This document shows, one piece after another, positions 57,180 through 64,000 of a stretch of 64,000 bases of DNA. How positions within the stretch are numbered: the first letter of the stretch is position 1; each line of letters starts with the position of its first letter. Origin of the DNA: Limnohabitans sp. Rim8. GTDB lineage: Bacteria > Pseudomonadota > Gammaproteobacteria > Burkholderiales > Burkholderiaceae_C. The position numbers were made by a program, and so were the translations under genes. The stretch covers positions 1-64,000 of the forward strand of contig NZ_CAMDLM010000012.1 in NCBI RefSeq assembly GCF_945901735.1, given 5' to 3'. The notes beneath the pieces are model-generated. The model searched no databases and was not told where the DNA came from. It saw only the letters and a list, made by a program, of their open reading frames with translations.

Positions 57180-57875
57180 TCAGGCCAATCCGATCGGGGC
57201 GGTGAACGCGTAGCCAATTTTGTGCACGGTTTCCAAGGGCAAGTCACTGCCCAGCAACTCTTTGGCTTTGTTGCGCAGTCTGCGGACCAGAATTTCCAGA
57301 CGTCTGAAGTCATAGGTTTGCGGGTCATGACCCAAGCGGGTCACCAAGGCTTGGCGTGCCACCGCTTGGCCACTTTGTTCGGCCATGACCTGCATGAACA
57401 TGAATTCAGAGTGGGTGAGTTTGAGGGGCATGCCAGAAGGATGGTGCAGCATCCAGTTCATGCGGTGCAAGACCCAGCTGGGTGAAGCTTGAGCCCGTAT
57501 CCGCCGCATCAGGTTGTGGACTAAAGAGGCCAGCTCCTCCAACTGAATGGGTTTGACCAAGTACACATCTGCGCCGGCTTTGATGCCCTCAATGCGTTGG
57601 CTGCTCTCGCCCCGCGCCGTGGTGATGATCACACCTTTGTTTTGCAGCAGGGGGTTTTCCTTGAACCAGACCATCCCATCGCCATCGGGCAAACCCAGGT
57701 CGATCACTGCCACATCGAACTGGTGGGTGCGCATCCATTGGGTGGCCATGTTCAGGCTGCTCACACCATCGGCTGCGAAGCCTTCCATGTTCAGGTAAGT
57801 GACCATGGCATCCATCAAATCGACCTCGTCTTCGATCACCAGAATGCGTCCGTGCAAAGGATTGGAATTGCTCAT
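57180..57875 (-). CDS. OmpR-type response regulator
   Basis: A 231-residue regulator with receiver domain: ILVIEDEVDLMDAM (acidic pocket), phospho-acceptor Asp in VAVIDLGLPDGDG, and Lys in YLVKPIQLEEL. A C-terminal winged-helix DNA-binding domain follows (LTHSEFMFMQVMAEQSG, LEILVRRLRNKAKELLG). Start ATG 57875 lies 12 bases after the kinase stop. Its targets are unknown; the divergent sapC operon is an obvious candidate. Confidence 0.93.
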   Translation of the reverse strand: MSNSNPLHGRILVIEDEVDLMDAMVTYLNMEGFAADGVSSLNMATQWMRTHQFDVAVIDLGLPDGDGMVWFKENPLLQNKGVIITTARGESSQRIEGIKAGADVYLVKPIQLEELASLVHNLMRRIRAQASPSWVLHRMNWMLHHPSGMPLKLTHSEFMFMQVMAEQSGQAVARQALVTRLGHDPQTYDFRRLEILVRRLRNKAKELLGSDLPLETVHKIGYAFTAPIGLA

Positions 57876-57887
57876 GGGGCCCGATTG

Positions 57888-59894
57888 TCACTGGTTTTGA
57901 TGGGGCAACCAAAGGCAAAAACGACTGCCTTGACCCACAGCGCTTTGCAGCTCCAGTTTTCCGTGGTGCATTTGGACAATGCGCCGGACAAAAGCCAGAC
58001 CCAGTCCCATGCCGGAGATGGTGCTTTCAGAGGCCACGCGAAAGTAGTCTTCAAAAACTGCTTCATGGTGCACGGTGTCAATCCCTTGCCCCTCGTCGCT
58101 CACGCAAATGCCAACCCATCCTGGTTTTTGCAGGGTTTCCACCAGCACCTTGGTGCCCGCATTTGAGTATTTGCACGCGTTGTCAATCAGGTTCAAAACG
58201 GCCACTTCCAACAAGTTTTCATCTGCCCAGAGATCACCCACAACGCGGTTGATTTTCAACTCCAAGCGGTGGTTGGCGTGGTAACTGGTTTGGTCGTCGA
58301 TCAACTCGCGAAGCCATGCCGCCAGTGGCAGGTGTTGCGGCTTCATGTCTTGCATGGCTTGTTGCAAACGATCACCACGCAGCCAGGTTTCAAACAGGGA
58401 AAGCAACCGTCGGGTGGCGCTGTCGATGGTTTGCAGTCGTTTGTCCAAATTCAATTGCCCCAGTTCATGCTCTTTGCGAATCAGGCTGATTTGGCTGTTG
58501 ACGATGCCCAAGGGATTGCGAAATTCGTGAGAAATCAAAGCCCCAAAACGCATGTATTGACTGAGCAATTGGGTTTCCGAGCTCAGAGCGAGCTTGAGTT
58601 GCTCGGTCCGTTCTTGCACAGCGCCTTCAAGGCGCTCCTCGGCCAGGCGTGCACTCTCTAAAAGACGCTGGTTGGCTTCGATGGCTTGTTGTTGTGCCGC
58701 TTCGCGGTTTTTGCGTTCGACGTGCACCATGTCGGCCAAGGCCAAGGCCAAGAGCAGCATCTCAATGGCTGAAGAAATTTGCAGGCTGTAGGATGTGAAT
58801 GTGTTGGTGGGCAGCAGGTCAAAAGATCGCAAGGCGGCGATGCTGGCCCCCGACCAAAGAACCAGCCAAGCCAGCAAGAAAAAGCGGGCTCCTTTTTCGC
58901 CCCGACGCACGATCATGGTCCCCGCGACCGCCACCCAGCCTCCGGTGGGCAGCACGACCATAAACAAGCCCATCAACAACCATTCTTTGAACTGCCCGTG
59001 CCACAGTGTGCTGAGCAAGGCCATGGCCATCAGCAAGTAAAAACTGGCAAAGAGCATCAAACCCCGTGAGGCCCAGGGCAGGTGTTGACGCGCTTGCAAA
59101 AAACGGTCGGCAAACAGCATGGAAAAACACCCCACCAAACTCAAAAAAACCGATTGCGCAATGCCATCAAACGCGGTTTTACCGGGCCACAGGAACAACT
59201 GTCCCAAGCCATTGCCCGCCAGCATGGCCAAACCAAAATGACCCACAAACAGGGAGTAAAGCAAAAACCGCAGGTCCTTGAGCGATAGCCACAAGAAAAG
59301 GTTGTAGATGAGCAAAGCGATCAATCCACCGAAATACAGGGCTTGAAGAATGAACTTGTTTTGAATGTGGTGACGAAACGGCTGCTCTTGCCACAGGCTC
59401 AAAGGCACCGTCAGGCTGTGATCGCTGGTCACACGCAGATAAAAGGCTTCTGAGTCGGTACTGATCTGCACGGGGAATGCATAAAAACTGTACAAAAAAG
59501 GCCTTGTCGAAATGTCCAAGGCGTTGCCAGTGCGCACGGGCGGTTGGTTGGGGGCAAAAAAATCGACGGTTCTCAATTGGAAAAAAGGCAACTCCAAAAC
59601 CCAGTTGGCGGGTGCATCGCTGGTTCTTTGCAAGGGGATGCGGATCCACACCGCCGATTGGCTAAATCCCAAATTGATCTCCCCGCGTTCGGCTTCCCAA
59701 GTTTGAAAACGGCTTGCCAGTGCTGGACTGCGCACATCTTCCAGCGTCAACTGGCCTGTTGTGTCTTCCAACACGGCCGCATTTTGCAAACGTTGTTGAT
59801 CTGGTGTGTCCCTGTCCAGCACATGGGTTTGGGCCTGCGACAGCAAGCTGAACACCATGGCCAGGACGATAAGCAGTGAACGGGTGAATTTCAT
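57888..59894 (-). CDS. 7TMR-DISM sensor histidine kinase
   Basis: A 668-residue hybrid sensor. It has a signal peptide, a periplasmic 7TMR-DISM extracellular beta domain (about residues 40-180), seven membrane helices (about 185-385), a coiled-coil linker (residues about 390-440) and the kinase core. His is in ISHEFRNPLGIVNSQ, the N box is NLIDNACKYS, and the G boxes are DEGQGI and GMGLGLAF. DISM domains may sense carbohydrates or other exported ligands. It forms a pair with the next response regulator. Confidence 0.92.
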   Translation of the reverse strand: MKFTRSLLIVLAMVFSLLSQAQTHVLDRDTPDQQRLQNAAVLEDTTGQLTLEDVRSPALASRFQTWEAERGEINLGFSQSAVWIRIPLQRTSDAPANWVLELPFFQLRTVDFFAPNQPPVRTGNALDISTRPFLYSFYAFPVQISTDSEAFYLRVTSDHSLTVPLSLWQEQPFRHHIQNKFILQALYFGGLIALLIYNLFLWLSLKDLRFLLYSLFVGHFGLAMLAGNGLGQLFLWPGKTAFDGIAQSVFLSLVGCFSMLFADRFLQARQHLPWASRGLMLFASFYLLMAMALLSTLWHGQFKEWLLMGLFMVVLPTGGWVAVAGTMIVRRGEKGARFFLLAWLVLWSGASIAALRSFDLLPTNTFTSYSLQISSAIEMLLLALALADMVHVERKNREAAQQQAIEANQRLLESARLAEERLEGAVQERTEQLKLALSSETQLLSQYMRFGALISHEFRNPLGIVNSQISLIRKEHELGQLNLDKRLQTIDSATRRLLSLFETWLRGDRLQQAMQDMKPQHLPLAAWLRELIDDQTSYHANHRLELKINRVVGDLWADENLLEVAVLNLIDNACKYSNAGTKVLVETLQKPGWVGICVSDEGQGIDTVHHEAVFEDYFRVASESTISGMGLGLAFVRRIVQMHHGKLELQSAVGQGSRFCLWLPHQNQ

Positions 59895-60140
59895 ACGCTG
59901 TAAAAATTGTCTTTTTTTGACTGTATTTGAATCAATTTTTTAAAAAATGTCGGATTGTGATGTTATTTGTCGAATTTGACGACTTCAACGCCATAAAAAT
60001 CAAAATTAACATCTCCAAACCTAAGCCCCTAGTGGGGTTTTTTGCCATTTCCGAGCCATGTGCAAGGGGGGGAATGTCAGGTGGGTCCCCGAACGAGGAG
60101 CCGCAGGTGCATTTTGATGAATTTTTCTTGGAGAAAAAAT
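59895..60140 (+). promoter_or_regulatory. AT-rich divergent region with terminator-like hairpin before sapC
   Basis: This 246-base gap is visibly AT-rich. AAGCCCC-TAGT-GGGG-TTTTTT (60023-60043) is a hairpin with a T-run on the plus strand, about 100 bases before the sapC ATG, and no gene lies in front of it. It may be an attenuator or the end of a small RNA. A possible -35 TTGACT (59918-59923) is followed by a poor -10. Confidence 0.45.
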
Positions 60141-60896
60141 ATGTTTGAACAAGTCGTTCCCGTGAACAAAGACCGTCACGCCAGCAAAAAAGTTCGCACC
60201 AGCAACGATTTCCGTTTTGCGTCCAAATTCCATGTGGCCTATGTGACTGTGCACGAATTTGCCCGCGCTGCGGCCATCTACCCCTTGGTTTTCCTTGAAG
60301 ACAAAGCCAATGACGATTTCCGTCCTGTGGCGCTGATGGGTTTGGATGCCGGTGAAAACCTGTTCGTGGACAGCCAGGGCCAATGGGCTGGATCGTACAT
60401 CCCCGCCATCATCCGCCGCTACCCTTTTGCCCTGACCAAGGCCCCAGAAGCTGACCGCTTCATTGTCTGTGTGGACGAAGCCAGCGAACTGCTCAGTGAC
60501 ACCGAGGGCGCCCCCATGTTTGATGCCCAAGGCAATCCCACGCAGGTGATTGAAAACGTCAAGCGTTACCTGGGTGAATTGCAGCAAATGGACGGCATGA
60601 CGCATGAATTCAGCAAATTTCTGGTGCAAAACAACCTGTTGACCCCCTTGAACATGCGTGTCAACGCGGCCAACCAGGTGCGCAACATCACCGGCTGCTA
60701 CGTCATCAACGAAGAGCGCCTGAACAATTTCAGCGATGCCAAATTCGCTGAAATTCGTCAAAAAGGCTATCTGCCCGCCATTTACGCACACCTGATTTCC
60801 TTGTCGCAGATCGAGCGACTGGCCTCCATGAAAAAACCAGCCGCAACGGCCAGCGAAAAGGCTGCCGCTCTGAGTGGTACCGATACCCTGCAATAA
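60141..60896 (+). CDS. SapC-family protein
   Basis: A 251-residue soluble protein of the SapC family, named after a gene beside the S-layer secretion genes of Campylobacter fetus. It shows FHVAYVTVHEFARAAAIYPL, VFLEDKANDDFRPVALMGLD and the repeated family pattern IPAIIRRYPFALTKAPE, with no signal peptide. The ATG at 60141 has a TTGGAGA site; longer starts add unrelated residues. It is the first gene of a rightward operon with TolC, HlyD and a GAF-like protein. Molecular function unknown. Confidence 0.88.
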   Translation: MFEQVVPVNKDRHASKKVRTSNDFRFASKFHVAYVTVHEFARAAAIYPLVFLEDKANDDFRPVALMGLDAGENLFVDSQGQWAGSYIPAIIRRYPFALTKAPEADRFIVCVDEASELLSDTEGAPMFDAQGNPTQVIENVKRYLGELQQMDGMTHEFSKFLVQNNLLTPLNMRVNAANQVRNITGCYVINEERLNNFSDAKFAEIRQKGYLPAIYAHLISLSQIERLASMKKPAATASEKAAALSGTDTLQ

Positions 60897-60924
60897 GCAG
60901 CCACCACCGCCCGGATGGCTGCTT
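60895..60924 (+). other. Intercistronic hairpin between sapC and tolC-like gene
   Basis: AAGCAGCCA (60895-60903) pairs with TGGCTGCTT (60916-60924), a perfect 9-bp stem starting in the sapC stop codon. There is no T-run, so it looks like an mRNA stability or processing element and not a full terminator. Confidence 0.45.
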
Positions 60925-60991
60925 AGCAACAAGCGGTCTCAGGGGCATTTCATGGTGGATCTTGAATGGAATTGAGCGAAGAGGTCAGAGC

Positions 60992-62521
60992 ATGGTCAAT
61001 TTTTCTGAGGCACGGGGGAGGCGAACACTGCCATGGTGTTTGTTCGCTGTGTTGGCGGCGGCATCCACTGGGGTTCAGGCCCAAGACAAGCCCTCAACGC
61101 TGAGTTTGCAAGCACTGGTCTCACAAGTGCGTGAACTGAACAAAGACATTCTCACCAAGCGCGCTGAAAAGGGCATTGCGGCGACGGCGATTGACCGCGC
61201 AGCAGCCGCTTTCCAGCCCGTTGCCAGTGTCACTGCCACCGATGGTCGTAACCGCCAACCGAGCACCTACGAAGAAAGGTTGTCCAGACCCGGTGCCGTC
61301 GATTCTTTTTACCAGCGCGATGGCCAGGATTTCACGGCTGGCGTGAGTCAGTTGCTGCCGACGGGCGCCAAACTCGAAGCCAAAAGCAGTCTGTCCCGCT
61401 TCATCACCAACGTCAATCAAGCCCAACCGGATCGCCCTGCAGGGGCCAAAGACAACCGCACTTTTTGGGGCCTGACGGTGACGCAACCCTTGGCCAAAGA
61501 CGGGGGTGTCGAGGTCACCCAAGCGCGTGGTTTGGTGGCTCAACTCGATCTGGCTGTGGCCCAGCACACCCAGACCGATACCGAATCCAGTGTGGTGGCC
61601 GATGCCACATTGGCCTACTACGAACTGGTCTTGGCCCAGCACCGGGTGAGCGCAGCCCATGAAAAAATCCGCACGGGTCAGGGTTTGCTCAGCCAAGCGC
61701 GAGATTTATCACGCCAGGGTCGCTTGCCTGAAACCGAAGTCTGGGAAGTCGAAAACTCTTTGTCGCGTTTTCAGGCCGGACTCAGTGAAGCCATGCAAGC
61801 CGAGCGCGAGCGCTTGAATCGACTGAACACCTTGCTCATGCGAGCGGCCGGTGCCGGAGCACCGGTTTGGCGTGCCGCCGACCCTTTGCCAGAGGTGACC
61901 ATCCGCGATGCAGTGGCTTCTGAGTCACTGAGTCTGGCCATGGAAAATCGGCCAGACTTTTTGATGCAGAAAAAACTGCTCGAACGGGAGGGTGTGCAGT
62001 TGGTGTATGCCCATAACCAAGCCTTGCCTCGCCTTGATCTGGTGGCCAGTTATGGTCAAAACGGACTGGCCTACGCCGCCAGAACAGCCCTGAACGCCAG
62101 CGCCATGGCTGACAACCCAACCTGGACCGTGGGGTTGCAACTGCAGATGCCTTTGGGCGAAAACCGCCAAGGCCGAGCAGATGTGATGGCTGCGCAGTTG
62201 CGCCGTGAAAACGCGATGCTCGCGCTCAAAGCCCTAGAAGTTCAAATTGCCAACGACATCGACACCAGCCTGAGCATGCGCGCCAGTGCCATTGAGCGAT
62301 GGACGCACTGGCAATCGGTGGCAAAACGTGAACAGCAGCAATTGGAATTGGAGCGCAAACGATTTACCGCAGGACGCAGTGAAATGCGCGAAATCCTGAT
62401 GCGTGAAGAGCGTGCTGTGAACGCGCGACTGATGCTGCTGGAGCAGCAACTGGCCTTTGCCAAGGCGCAGGTTGTGCTGGAGTCGGCCCAGGGCACATTG
62501 CTCCAGCGATGGCCATCATGA
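60992..62521 (+). CDS. TolC-family outer membrane efflux/secretion protein
   Basis: A 509-residue outer membrane channel protein. A signal peptide (ending GVQAQ) precedes two repeated outer membrane efflux halves rich in coiled coil, with TLAYYELVLAQHRVSAAHEK and NDIDTSLSMRASAIERWTHW. The ATG at 60992 (MVNFSEARGRR) follows an AGAGG site. Its stop overlaps the adaptor start ATGA. It would provide the outer membrane exit of the export system. Confidence 0.9.
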   Translation: MVNFSEARGRRTLPWCLFAVLAAASTGVQAQDKPSTLSLQALVSQVRELNKDILTKRAEKGIAATAIDRAAAAFQPVASVTATDGRNRQPSTYEERLSRPGAVDSFYQRDGQDFTAGVSQLLPTGAKLEAKSSLSRFITNVNQAQPDRPAGAKDNRTFWGLTVTQPLAKDGGVEVTQARGLVAQLDLAVAQHTQTDTESSVVADATLAYYELVLAQHRVSAAHEKIRTGQGLLSQARDLSRQGRLPETEVWEVENSLSRFQAGLSEAMQAERERLNRLNTLLMRAAGAGAPVWRAADPLPEVTIRDAVASESLSLAMENRPDFLMQKKLLEREGVQLVYAHNQALPRLDLVASYGQNGLAYAARTALNASAMADNPTWTVGLQLQMPLGENRQGRADVMAAQLRRENAMLALKALEVQIANDIDTSLSMRASAIERWTHWQSVAKREQQQLELERKRFTAGRSEMREILMREERAVNARLMLLEQQLAFAKAQVVLESAQGTLLQRWPS

Positions 62522-63381
62522 GGCGTTTGAACAGCATGGACGCATGCTTGTCCATATTTAGGGTCACGGTGTTGGCCCTTTTGCCCTGGGGGGTGGCGGT
62601 CGCACAACCTGCCGCTCCCCTGAACCAGGGCGCCATGAAAACGCAGAGTGCCGCGGTGGGCGTCACACAAGCCTTGCGCGATGTCAAGCTCAGCATGACC
62701 GTGGCCGGTCGCATTGATGGGGTTTACGTCCGCGAAGGCTCTCGGGTGCGACAAGGCCAATTGTTGATGCATCTGGACCGAACACTGGAAGAGCTGGAGG
62801 TGCAGCGCCGACGTCTTTTGGTGGAAGACAAGGCCCGGCTGCAAGAGCTTCAGCAAAAAGAAAAAATACTGATCGAGCAAGTCAACGCTTTGCAGCCCTT
62901 ATTGGCCAATGGCGGCGTTTCCCGCAAGCAAGTGGAGGACGAGGTGATGGCGCTGGGCTCTGTGAGTGCAGAGCGCAAAGCCATAGAAGCGACGAAGGAC
63001 CGTGAGCGTGTTGAATTGGCCTTGGCGCAAGAGGCCTTTGAGCGGCGTCATCTGCGTTCGCCCATCGACGGCGTCATCACCAAGGTGGCCCTGCGTGCAG
63101 GTGAAAGTGTGGGGGCGCATGAGCCCGTGATCGCCGTGGTGGACATCAGCCGGGTGCGCTTCATGGGCACCGTCCCCGCGCGTGCAGGTCTCTCATTGAA
63201 GCTGGGCAGTACCGTCAAGATTGAATTGGGGCAAGACACGCAATCCCAAACGCGCTCAGCCAAGGTGGTGTTTGTCTCGCCCATCACCGACCCCTCCAGT
63301 GGCTTGATTGAAGTGATTGCAGAGTTTGACAACGCCGACGGTTCCATCCGACCCGGCATCAGTGGCCGACTGTTGTTCTGA
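62518..63381 (+). CDS. Short HlyD/RND-type periplasmic adaptor
   Basis: A 287-residue membrane-fusion-type protein. After a signal peptide (ending GVAVAQ) come the first lipoyl half (VAGRIDGVYVREGSRVRQGQ), a short coiled hairpin, the second lipoyl half (SPIDGVITKVALRAGESVG) and a small beta-barrel. It is shorter than most adaptors (about 350-480 residues), so it may lack the membrane-proximal domain. The start ATG at 62518 overlaps the TolC-like stop by 4 bp; an in-frame ATG at 62509 is possible. Confidence 0.87.
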   Translation: MRRLNSMDACLSIFRVTVLALLPWGVAVAQPAAPLNQGAMKTQSAAVGVTQALRDVKLSMTVAGRIDGVYVREGSRVRQGQLLMHLDRTLEELEVQRRRLLVEDKARLQELQQKEKILIEQVNALQPLLANGGVSRKQVEDEVMALGSVSAERKAIEATKDRERVELALAQEAFERRHLRSPIDGVITKVALRAGESVGAHEPVIAVVDISRVRFMGTVPARAGLSLKLGSTVKIELGQDTQSQTRSAKVVFVSPITDPSSGLIEVIAEFDNADGSIRPGISGRLLF

Positions 63382-63391
63382 TCGTCTGCCC

Positions 63392-64000
63392 ATGAACGCG
63401 TCTTCTCAAAGATTGAACCCAGCAGTCCAAGATGCGGCGTCTGTCAGTTCGGTGTGGGCCGAGCTGGTGGCATTGCAAGGCACAGCGCAGGTGTTTTGGG
63501 AGCAGTACCTCCAAGCCGTGGGGCAGCAATTGGGTGCGCGGCGCGTCTTGTTGTTGTCCTCGGGTGTGGGACAGCCTTGGCAAGCCCTGGCCCAATGGCC
63601 AGCGCAGGCGCCCGAACTGCCCAGTGATGCCGATGAGGCTTTGCAGCTGTTGCAGCACGCGCAACCGGGTGAACCCGTCTTGAACCACAAGGCGCAAGGC
63701 GCATCCGTGTTGGCCATGCCGCTGCCGAACGCACCCGTGGGTGCCAGCCGTGTCGCTGCTTTGGTGGCCTGGTTGACGGTGAGCCAAGAGCAGTCCTCAA
63801 ACCCATGGCAGGCTTGGGCTCAGTCCGTGGCGCAAGTGCCTGCTGCTTATGCCAGGCAATCGGCCGAGACCTCTGCACTGCAGACCGCCCAAGTGCTGGG
63901 CGACGCGAACGACCCGCTTTCGGCCGAACCCCATGCGCAGCGGCTCTACCAAATCTTGCGTCTCTCCATCGACTTGTCCCAGCAGGACCGGTTTCTGCAC
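63392..64000 (+). CDS. GAF-like protein, probable HlyD-family adaptor (partial)
   Basis: An open frame of 203 codons from ATG 63392 runs off the right edge. It has no signal peptide, starts MNASSQRLNPAVQDAASVSS, then VWAELVALQGTAQVFWEQYL, and has a GAF-like first domain with ARRVLLLSSGVGQPWQALAQ and a middle LAMPLPN strand. The end LYQILRLSIDLSQQDRFLH is the usual bridge to a second GAF domain in GAF-plus-HlyD adaptor proteins. This family match is from memory. It starts 10 bases after the adaptor. Confidence 0.6.
   Translation, partial: MNASSQRLNPAVQDAASVSSVWAELVALQGTAQVFWEQYLQAVGQQLGARRVLLLSSGVGQPWQALAQWPAQAPELPSDADEALQLLQHAQPGEPVLNHKAQGASVLAMPLPNAPVGASRVAALVAWLTVSQEQSSNPWQAWAQSVAQVPAAYARQSAETSALQTAQVLGDANDPLSAEPHAQRLYQILRLSIDLSQQDRFLH

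Follow-up and report, generated by a model that had tools for sequence, protein, structure and literature searches.

An operon that begins near the end of a 64,000-nucleotide stretch of Limnohabitans sp. Rim8 DNA (hereafter, the window) and continues past its edge is read here as a secretion system that serves a single giant surface protein without cysteines and is powered by a SecA-type motor. We put the probability of this reading at roughly 0.6 and, if it is right, the operon encodes an undescribed kind of bacterial secretion machine. The window corresponds to positions 1-64000 of contig C12 (NZ_CAMDLM010000012.1) in a 3.67-Mb assembly; the contig extends to 100,454, and coordinates above 64000 are those of C12, beyond the window. 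The genes of the operon are as follows:

60141..60896, plus strand: SapC-family protein, accessory (PF07277, 249.1 bits, cut-off 28.9, E 4.7e-74)
60992..62521, plus strand: TolC-type outer-membrane channel (OEP, 4.4e-27)
62518..63381, plus strand: short periplasmic adaptor of the HlyD/RND_mfp type (HlyD_D23, 8.7e-20; NCBIfam RND_mfp, 130.9 bits, cut-off 94.9)
C12:63392-65290 (in-window part 63392..64000), plus strand: GAF-HlyD (GAF, 3.3e-08; HlyD_3, 4.9e-14)
C12:65287-67464, plus strand: M50-HlyD (weak Pfam M50 match; HlyD_3)
C12:67461-69494, plus strand: SecA-like protein, SecAL (SecA_DEAD, 1.3e-81; PPXD, 9.9e-20)
C12:69491-70423 (equal to L002:6492-7424), plus strand: 310-amino acid (aa) ABBA-fold protein (predicted by fold comparison)
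C12:70420 to beyond 100454, plus strand: giant LEPR-XLL gene (LEPR-XLL, 21.6 bits)

With the likely starts, the genes from sapC to the giant form a single, tightly packed operon, in which a 95-bp gap separates sapC from tolC, tolC overlaps the adaptor gene by 4 bp, and 10 bp lie between the adaptor and GAF-HlyD genes. ATGA overlaps of 4 bp account for five of the seven junctions, and the 310-aa gene overlaps both the SecAL gene and the giant gene (4 bp each). The sapC open reading frame (ORF) opens at TTG 60042 and its homologues begin at ATG 60141 (consensus MFxQVVPVN), while the tolC start was set at the ATG preceding a signal-peptide-like stretch. Family scans show both a HlyD-type adaptor and a TolC-type channel in the operon. 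The in-window part of the fourth gene had no Pfam match at E 0.001; the whole protein (632 or 657 aa, depending on the start) contains GAF and HlyD domains.

A preliminary description of the window had reported sapC, TolC-type, short HlyD-type and GAF-like genes in order on one strand, with 4-bp and 10-bp junctions after the sapC gap. These observations are confirmed, as the PF07277, OEP, HlyD_D23 and GAF matches identify the genes and the junctions agree with the likely starts. An M50-type peptidase with a lipoyl part had been suggested to lie past the edge and, on reading the DNA after 64000, M50-HlyD was found to follow GAF-HlyD directly. The accompanying interpretation is partly supported. 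An energising or processing unit past the edge was correctly anticipated with regard to the M50 protease, but the operon's ATPase is, judged by sequence, a truncated SecA paralogue, which differs from the guess; of the proposed surface or peptide substrate, a giant LEPR-XLL surface protein is likely, and not a peptide.

Conservation of the gene set

Relatives were collected by scanning genome contigs with a 17-row M50 alignment, from which the best 80 of 149 stretches were kept (79 loci). The 80 locus maps include our own locus, and L012, a near-identical locus from a Limnohabitans sp. Rim8 metagenome-assembled genome (MAG) that is the nearest named relative found (M50 99% identical), was kept in the counts. 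On the maps, TolC, the short adaptor, GAF-HlyD, M50 and SecAL are followed by SapC, the 310-aa protein or both, and by a large LEPR ORF; the order is not fixed. GAF-HlyD was present in 73 of the 75 loci with 1,500 bp before M50, and SecAL in 66 of the 73 with 1,500 bp after M50. The short adaptor (48/55) and TolC (44/62) were likewise frequent where the DNA was long enough. The gene association is conserved across phyla, with record titles naming Beta-, Alpha- and Gammaproteobacteria, Magnetococcales, Verrucomicrobia, Nitrospirota and one Planctomycetota. The titles of some MAGs seem to be in error, however, because the tree of M50 proteins places rows labeled "Planctomycetota" and "Akkermansia" among Verrucomicrobia and Comamonadaceae.

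A further test used 249 genomes drawn from the phylum, for which all counts are lower bounds; for M50 and SecAL, the initial pass scored four candidates in each genome. LEPR-8K was found in at least 35 genomes (47 places), the M50 superfamily in at least 79, and SecAL, which was called by score (38 matches of at least 688 bits versus at most 567 for full-length SecA), in at least 30. Among the matches listed, SecAL and LEPR occurred together in 24 genomes, SecAL alone in 6, LEPR alone in 11 and neither in 208 (Fisher 1.1e-19, relatedness ignored), and 34 of the 35 LEPR genomes carried an M50 protein of this superfamily. Of the 38 SecAL matches listed, 35 had M50 on the same strand no more than 500 bp away; of the remainder, one was 972 bp from M50 and two were on contigs without a listed M50. 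In 100 genomes of relatives, own included, the M50 protein had a match in 31, some to the HlyD part only, and 13 scored at least 300 bits.

The LEPR-XLL giant as likely cargo

The likely cargo is the giant LEPR-XLL protein (>10,000 aa) encoded by the last gene. Its ORF runs for 10,011 codons to the contig end with no stop and no cysteine, matches LEPR-XLL NF012209 (21.6 bits, or 25.9 in the genome search; cut-off 17), and contains LktA_tand_53 repeats (4.7e-44) in a domain scan of the first 1,500 residues. A strict N-terminal LEPR motif, [LFMI]E[PDEASQ][RK][IVLF][LM][LFMYA]SA, was found within the first 160 residues of 52 out of 783 mapped ORFs, at 50 loci and in no machinery gene (53 of 4,459 ORFs have it at any position). 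Forty-one of the 52 have at least 1,000 codons inside the locus and 43 run off the locus end. Where 5.5 kb were available downstream of M50, 41 of 52 loci had a LEPR-motif ORF. Eight of the 11 others (L014, L015, L019, L026, L037, L038, L066 and L073) are arranged otherwise, mostly with a large upstream ORF that begins outside the locus; the motif of L067 is a variant, and L062 and L080 show none.

Two giants are complete, measured stop to stop on joined pieces: that of Limnohabitans planktonicus II-D5 has 14,209 codons and 2 cysteines, and that of Limnohabitans WS1 has 14,691 codons and none. Neither the II-D5 giant nor our own partial giant has a 19-residue window above 1.9 hydropathy, and the WS1 giant has four (up to 2.11). 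LEPR open frames in the 249 genomes reach at least 3,000 codons at 32 of 47 places and exceed 10,000 at 10. Frames of up to 19,427 codons were seen (G167:C115:112865 and other places).

SecAL, a shortened SecA

SecAL aligns with Bacillus subtilis SecA only over 36-604, and with the genome's own SecA it shares 34.7% identity over 674 columns. The DEAD/NBD1, PPXD and NBD2 parts are present with intact motifs. Across 63 SecAL proteins longer than 600 aa (the alignment excluded shorter, split copies such as L035 and L045), Walker A was found in 63, DEAD in 62 and GRxxRxG in 62, and in all 63 no more than 23 residues align beyond residue 660 of the 922-residue housekeeping SecA. The missing C-terminal part amounts to approximately the last 240-260 residues of SecA, which we take, from the SecA domain borders, to be the wing, two-helix finger and tail. 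The sole match to the PF07516 wing/scaffold in the genome was the full-length housekeeping SecA on contig C10, and none was found in SecAL. By sequence, SecAL preserves the motifs of the ATPase and ends short of the C-terminal part that SecA has.

M50-HlyD, a putative protease and leader-binding protein

M50-HlyD proteins retain the zinc-protease motif. HExxH is present in all 75 complete M50 proteins (within residues 150-260 in 73, and elsewhere in two longer ORFs with another start), as is a second, NPxxxxDG-like M50 motif (75/75). The operon's own M50-HlyD matches a daptide HExxH protease over residues 25-410, although at 194.9 bits this is under the cut-off of 300. The first 110 residues resemble PqqD, for which matches were detected in 5 of 10 M50 N-termini (2 over the Pfam cut-off) and in 8 of 18 full-length members at E ≤0.05 (best 3.8e-8). 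In peptide-modifying enzymes, PqqD-like domains serve to bind the leader peptide, and it is therefore a reasonable guess, no more, that the N-terminal domain of M50-HlyD binds the LEPR-XLL leader.

Proposed mechanism and alternatives

Under the proposed mechanism, recognition of the LEPR-XLL N-terminus would take place at the cytosolic face, with the PqqD-like N-terminal domain of M50-HlyD as a possible reader. M50-HlyD and GAF-HlyD would form the core of an inner-membrane assembly, and SecAL would feed the unfolded chain through it. This assembly would be connected to TolC by the HlyD parts together with the short adaptor; the M50 site may cut or clear the leader, and the GAF domain could gate secretion. 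In some lineages, the ABBA-fold protein and SapC may modify or prepare the cargo. A more specific version would be a new Gram-negative secretion class, in which a megadalton protein passes via an M50-HlyD conduit to TolC without the help of SecYEG, driven by a SecA relative that has neither wing nor finger, with the LEPR-XLL leader read by the PqqD-like domain and cut by M50, and the giant prenylated by the ABBA-fold enzyme in some lineages. Taken as a whole, this version is tentative, and we hold it to be more doubtful than not.

Several observations weigh against a dedicated, SecAL-driven system. M50 occurs without SecAL at six Cellvibrio-type loci and at L078 and L129, and the genomes of L065, L068 and L072 contain full-length SecA only. 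A quick tree of 87 M50 proteins, with several long branches, groups the six Cellvibrio/Alteromonadaceae rows that have no SecAL into a single supported clade within SecAL-bearing lineages; hence SecAL was probably lost, or replaced, in one lineage, which is the main weakness of the motor hypothesis (L016, L033 and L044 are SecAL-free in the tree because their contigs end there). A distant SecAL-free clade of 7 rows lies outside the SecAL-bearing lineages. SecAL is therefore not universal, and another energy source is possible. Among the matches listed for the 249 genomes, 9 of 45 M50 proteins of this clade had no adjoining SecAL, and 45 of 79 M50 genomes had no LEPR match. Loci L123, L125, L127, L132 and L133, from the same genus, likewise lack SecAL and carry a distant M50 and GAF-HlyD pair next to a large ORF that the end of the locus truncates, an arrangement suggestive of a sister system.

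Other points of this kind concern the protease and the cargo. Our own M50-HlyD scores 20.6 bits against Pfam M50, under the cut-off of 27.2, and its PqqD match is weak (E 0.089). Five of the 52 LEPR-motif ORFs stop early (125, 319, 684, 740 and 837 aa, the last three from Nitrospira), and Nitrospira loci L056 and L063 encode at least two LEPR-XLL proteins of 684-837 aa in tandem beside the same machinery; the cargo therefore need not be giant. Furthermore, the complete giants of II-D5 and WS1 have a small RTX-like cluster that lies 1,900-2,470 residues from the end, with 6 and 7 copies of GGxGxD, mostly near residue 12,230-12,320, the last copies being 1,891 and 2,382 residues from the end.

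The alternative that survives best is that the giant crosses the inner membrane via SecYEG with full-length SecA, SecAL helping, and that M50, HlyD and TolC serve outer-membrane passage or processing only. This would accommodate the three Cellvibrio-type genomes with full-length SecA but no SecAL, the distant M50 systems that likewise lack it, and the identity that marks SecAL as a true SecA relative. Nonetheless, SecAL lacks the region that should hold the two-helix finger, and LEPR N-termini show no typical hydrophobic signal peptide: their best 15-residue hydropathy has a median of 0.89 (n = 52), with seven at 1.45 or above and one, at 1.96, exceeding the 1.66 of TolC. We consider the SecYEG route unlikely.

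The second alternative places the pump elsewhere, and bears on the remark in the preliminary description that no ATP-binding cassette (ABC) or resistance-nodulation-division (RND) pump was visible. This remark stood when the operon was read past the window edge. Pfam and NCBIfam scans (covering the first 1,500 residues of the giant) had no match to an ABC, RND or major facilitator superfamily (MFS) pump, and such a pump in the operon was rejected as a candidate. Nor was one recurrent among relatives. A motif scan of 383 unlabelled ORFs from the 80 loci yielded one ORF with both an ABC signature and a Walker A motif (262 aa, on the minus strand of L062), none of eight RND-size ORFs at these loci was pump-like as judged by the N-terminus, and Pfam on 84 of 188 neighbour ORFs gave no pump family among the best 25 of 99, each in at most two members. 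Ten flanking ORFs scanned singly included ordinary enzymes (e.g., URO-D, PriA and a TPP enzyme). On contig C18 of the same genome, locus L131 carries a separate, conventional ABC, HlyD and TolC set beside a Big_12-domain ORF.

An ABC transporter such as that on C18 could be the pump of an ordinary type I system with scattered genes, a view that gains from the few RTX-like repeats, far from the end, in the two complete giants. It also gains from a study of cold-adapted Vibrio, which reports an LEPR-XLL giant of ~8,000 aa with C-terminal RTX and seralysin domains (PMC10868602); given this RTX end, ordinary type I export may serve for part of the LEPR-XLL giants. However, the C18 set includes HlyD and TolC genes of its own and has its own neighbouring large ORFs, the M50-SecAL-LEPR unit is found in different phyla without an ABC gene that recurs next to it, and no RTX repeat occurs in the final 250 residues of either complete giant, which makes scattered type I genes improbable. 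About as improbable is a role of the operon in exporting or processing a small peptide or drug, in a daptide- or efflux-like manner, with the giant gene as a passenger. The daptide-like M50 part and the RND_mfp call of the short adaptor speak for it; against it stand the LEPR-XLL ORFs downstream of M50 at 41 of 52 loci, the co-occurrence of LEPR and SecAL at genome level, and the 4-bp overlap of the giant gene with the preceding gene.

Comparison with known systems

As proposed, the SecAL-driven system works like type I secretion, yet the defining ABC transporter was not found. It shares with HlyBD-TolC and LapBCE a TolC channel, HlyD-type adaptors and a giant adhesin-like substrate in which no Sec signal peptide is evident, but has a SecA-type ATPase and an M50 protease instead of an ABC transporter, and an N-terminal LEPR-XLL sequence, with no RTX repeat in the final 250 residues of the II-D5 and WS1 giants. 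As in accessory Sec (SecA2) systems, an additional SecA exists besides the housekeeping copy, and its gene lies with that of a large cargo; the present system differs in the C-terminal shortening of SecAL, in being Gram-negative, and in having adaptors and TolC. The M50-type protease resembles the daptide/YydH-type HExxH membrane proteases of clusters for ribosomally synthesised and post-translationally modified peptides (the daptide match includes its front part), but it is fused to a HlyD adaptor, is under the NCBIfam cut-offs, and is linked to giants. The 310-aa protein is similar to the ABBA prenyltransferases (DMATS, CymD and PatF/PagF) in fold and E/R/K/Y placement, but has no PDB sequence match and is encoded in a secretion operon.

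The cargo is a member of the LEPR-XLL (NF012209) giants, an entry that names the domain only. We found no description of this export machinery in the literature searched, which covered few subscription papers and did not extend to preprints. It is not described in the accessible portions of a paper on huge proteins (PMC11573180) and one on an adhesin beside an ABC-type system (PMC12153261). A review of tripartite systems, as far as its text was available, lists ABC, RND and MFS energisers, and both of its mentions of SecA concern SecDF (PMC8277102). In another study, the closest relative with the largest number of unique proteins in one of three samples from Lake Baikal was a Limnohabitans LEPR-XLL protein (PMC9611531).

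How LEPR-XLL proteins of at least 10,000 residues are exported is unanswered in the literature searched. The conserved gene set supplies a candidate motor, conduit, protease, signal and channel and occurs in named strains, such as L. planktonicus II-D5, Limnohabitans sp. WS1 and Azohydromonas australica DSM 1124, which makes the question directly testable. A SecA without the finger-holding region would also probe which parts of SecA protein movement needs.

Accessory and neighbouring genes

The preliminary description had placed SapC at the centre of the system, which was not upheld. SapC is near the machinery in only 20 of 46 loci with enough flank, and the locus maps show it at either end of the machinery genes; it is therefore accessory. 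Its structure model is confident over most of its length (predicted local distance difference test 82.6), and comparison of this model with solved structures gave no useful match.

The 310-aa protein matched no Pfam or NCBIfam model at E 0.1, and a profile search of its family against PDB structures gave no sequence match. Fold comparison points to a PT-barrel, the ABBA prenyltransferase fold, with the conserved E/R/K/Y residues of the family placed as in those enzymes. The family comprises 50 proteins among the matches listed (near-copies of our own included), and the protein is present in 18 of 58 loci with long enough DNA.

Two possible regulators lie beside the operon, the kinase gene being divergent from it:

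57180..57875, minus strand: response regulator (Response_reg, 2.3e-19; Trans_reg_C, 5.6e-10)
57888..59894, minus strand: 7TMR-DISM sensor histidine kinase (7TMR-DISM_7TM, 2.2e-41; HATPase_c, 4.5e-23)

Relatives of the response regulator were found near 7 of the 80 loci and relatives of the kinase near 9, our own locus and its near-copy L012 being counted in both. The Cellvibrio locus L065 has a histidine kinase and a response-regulator GGDEF-EAL protein next to it.

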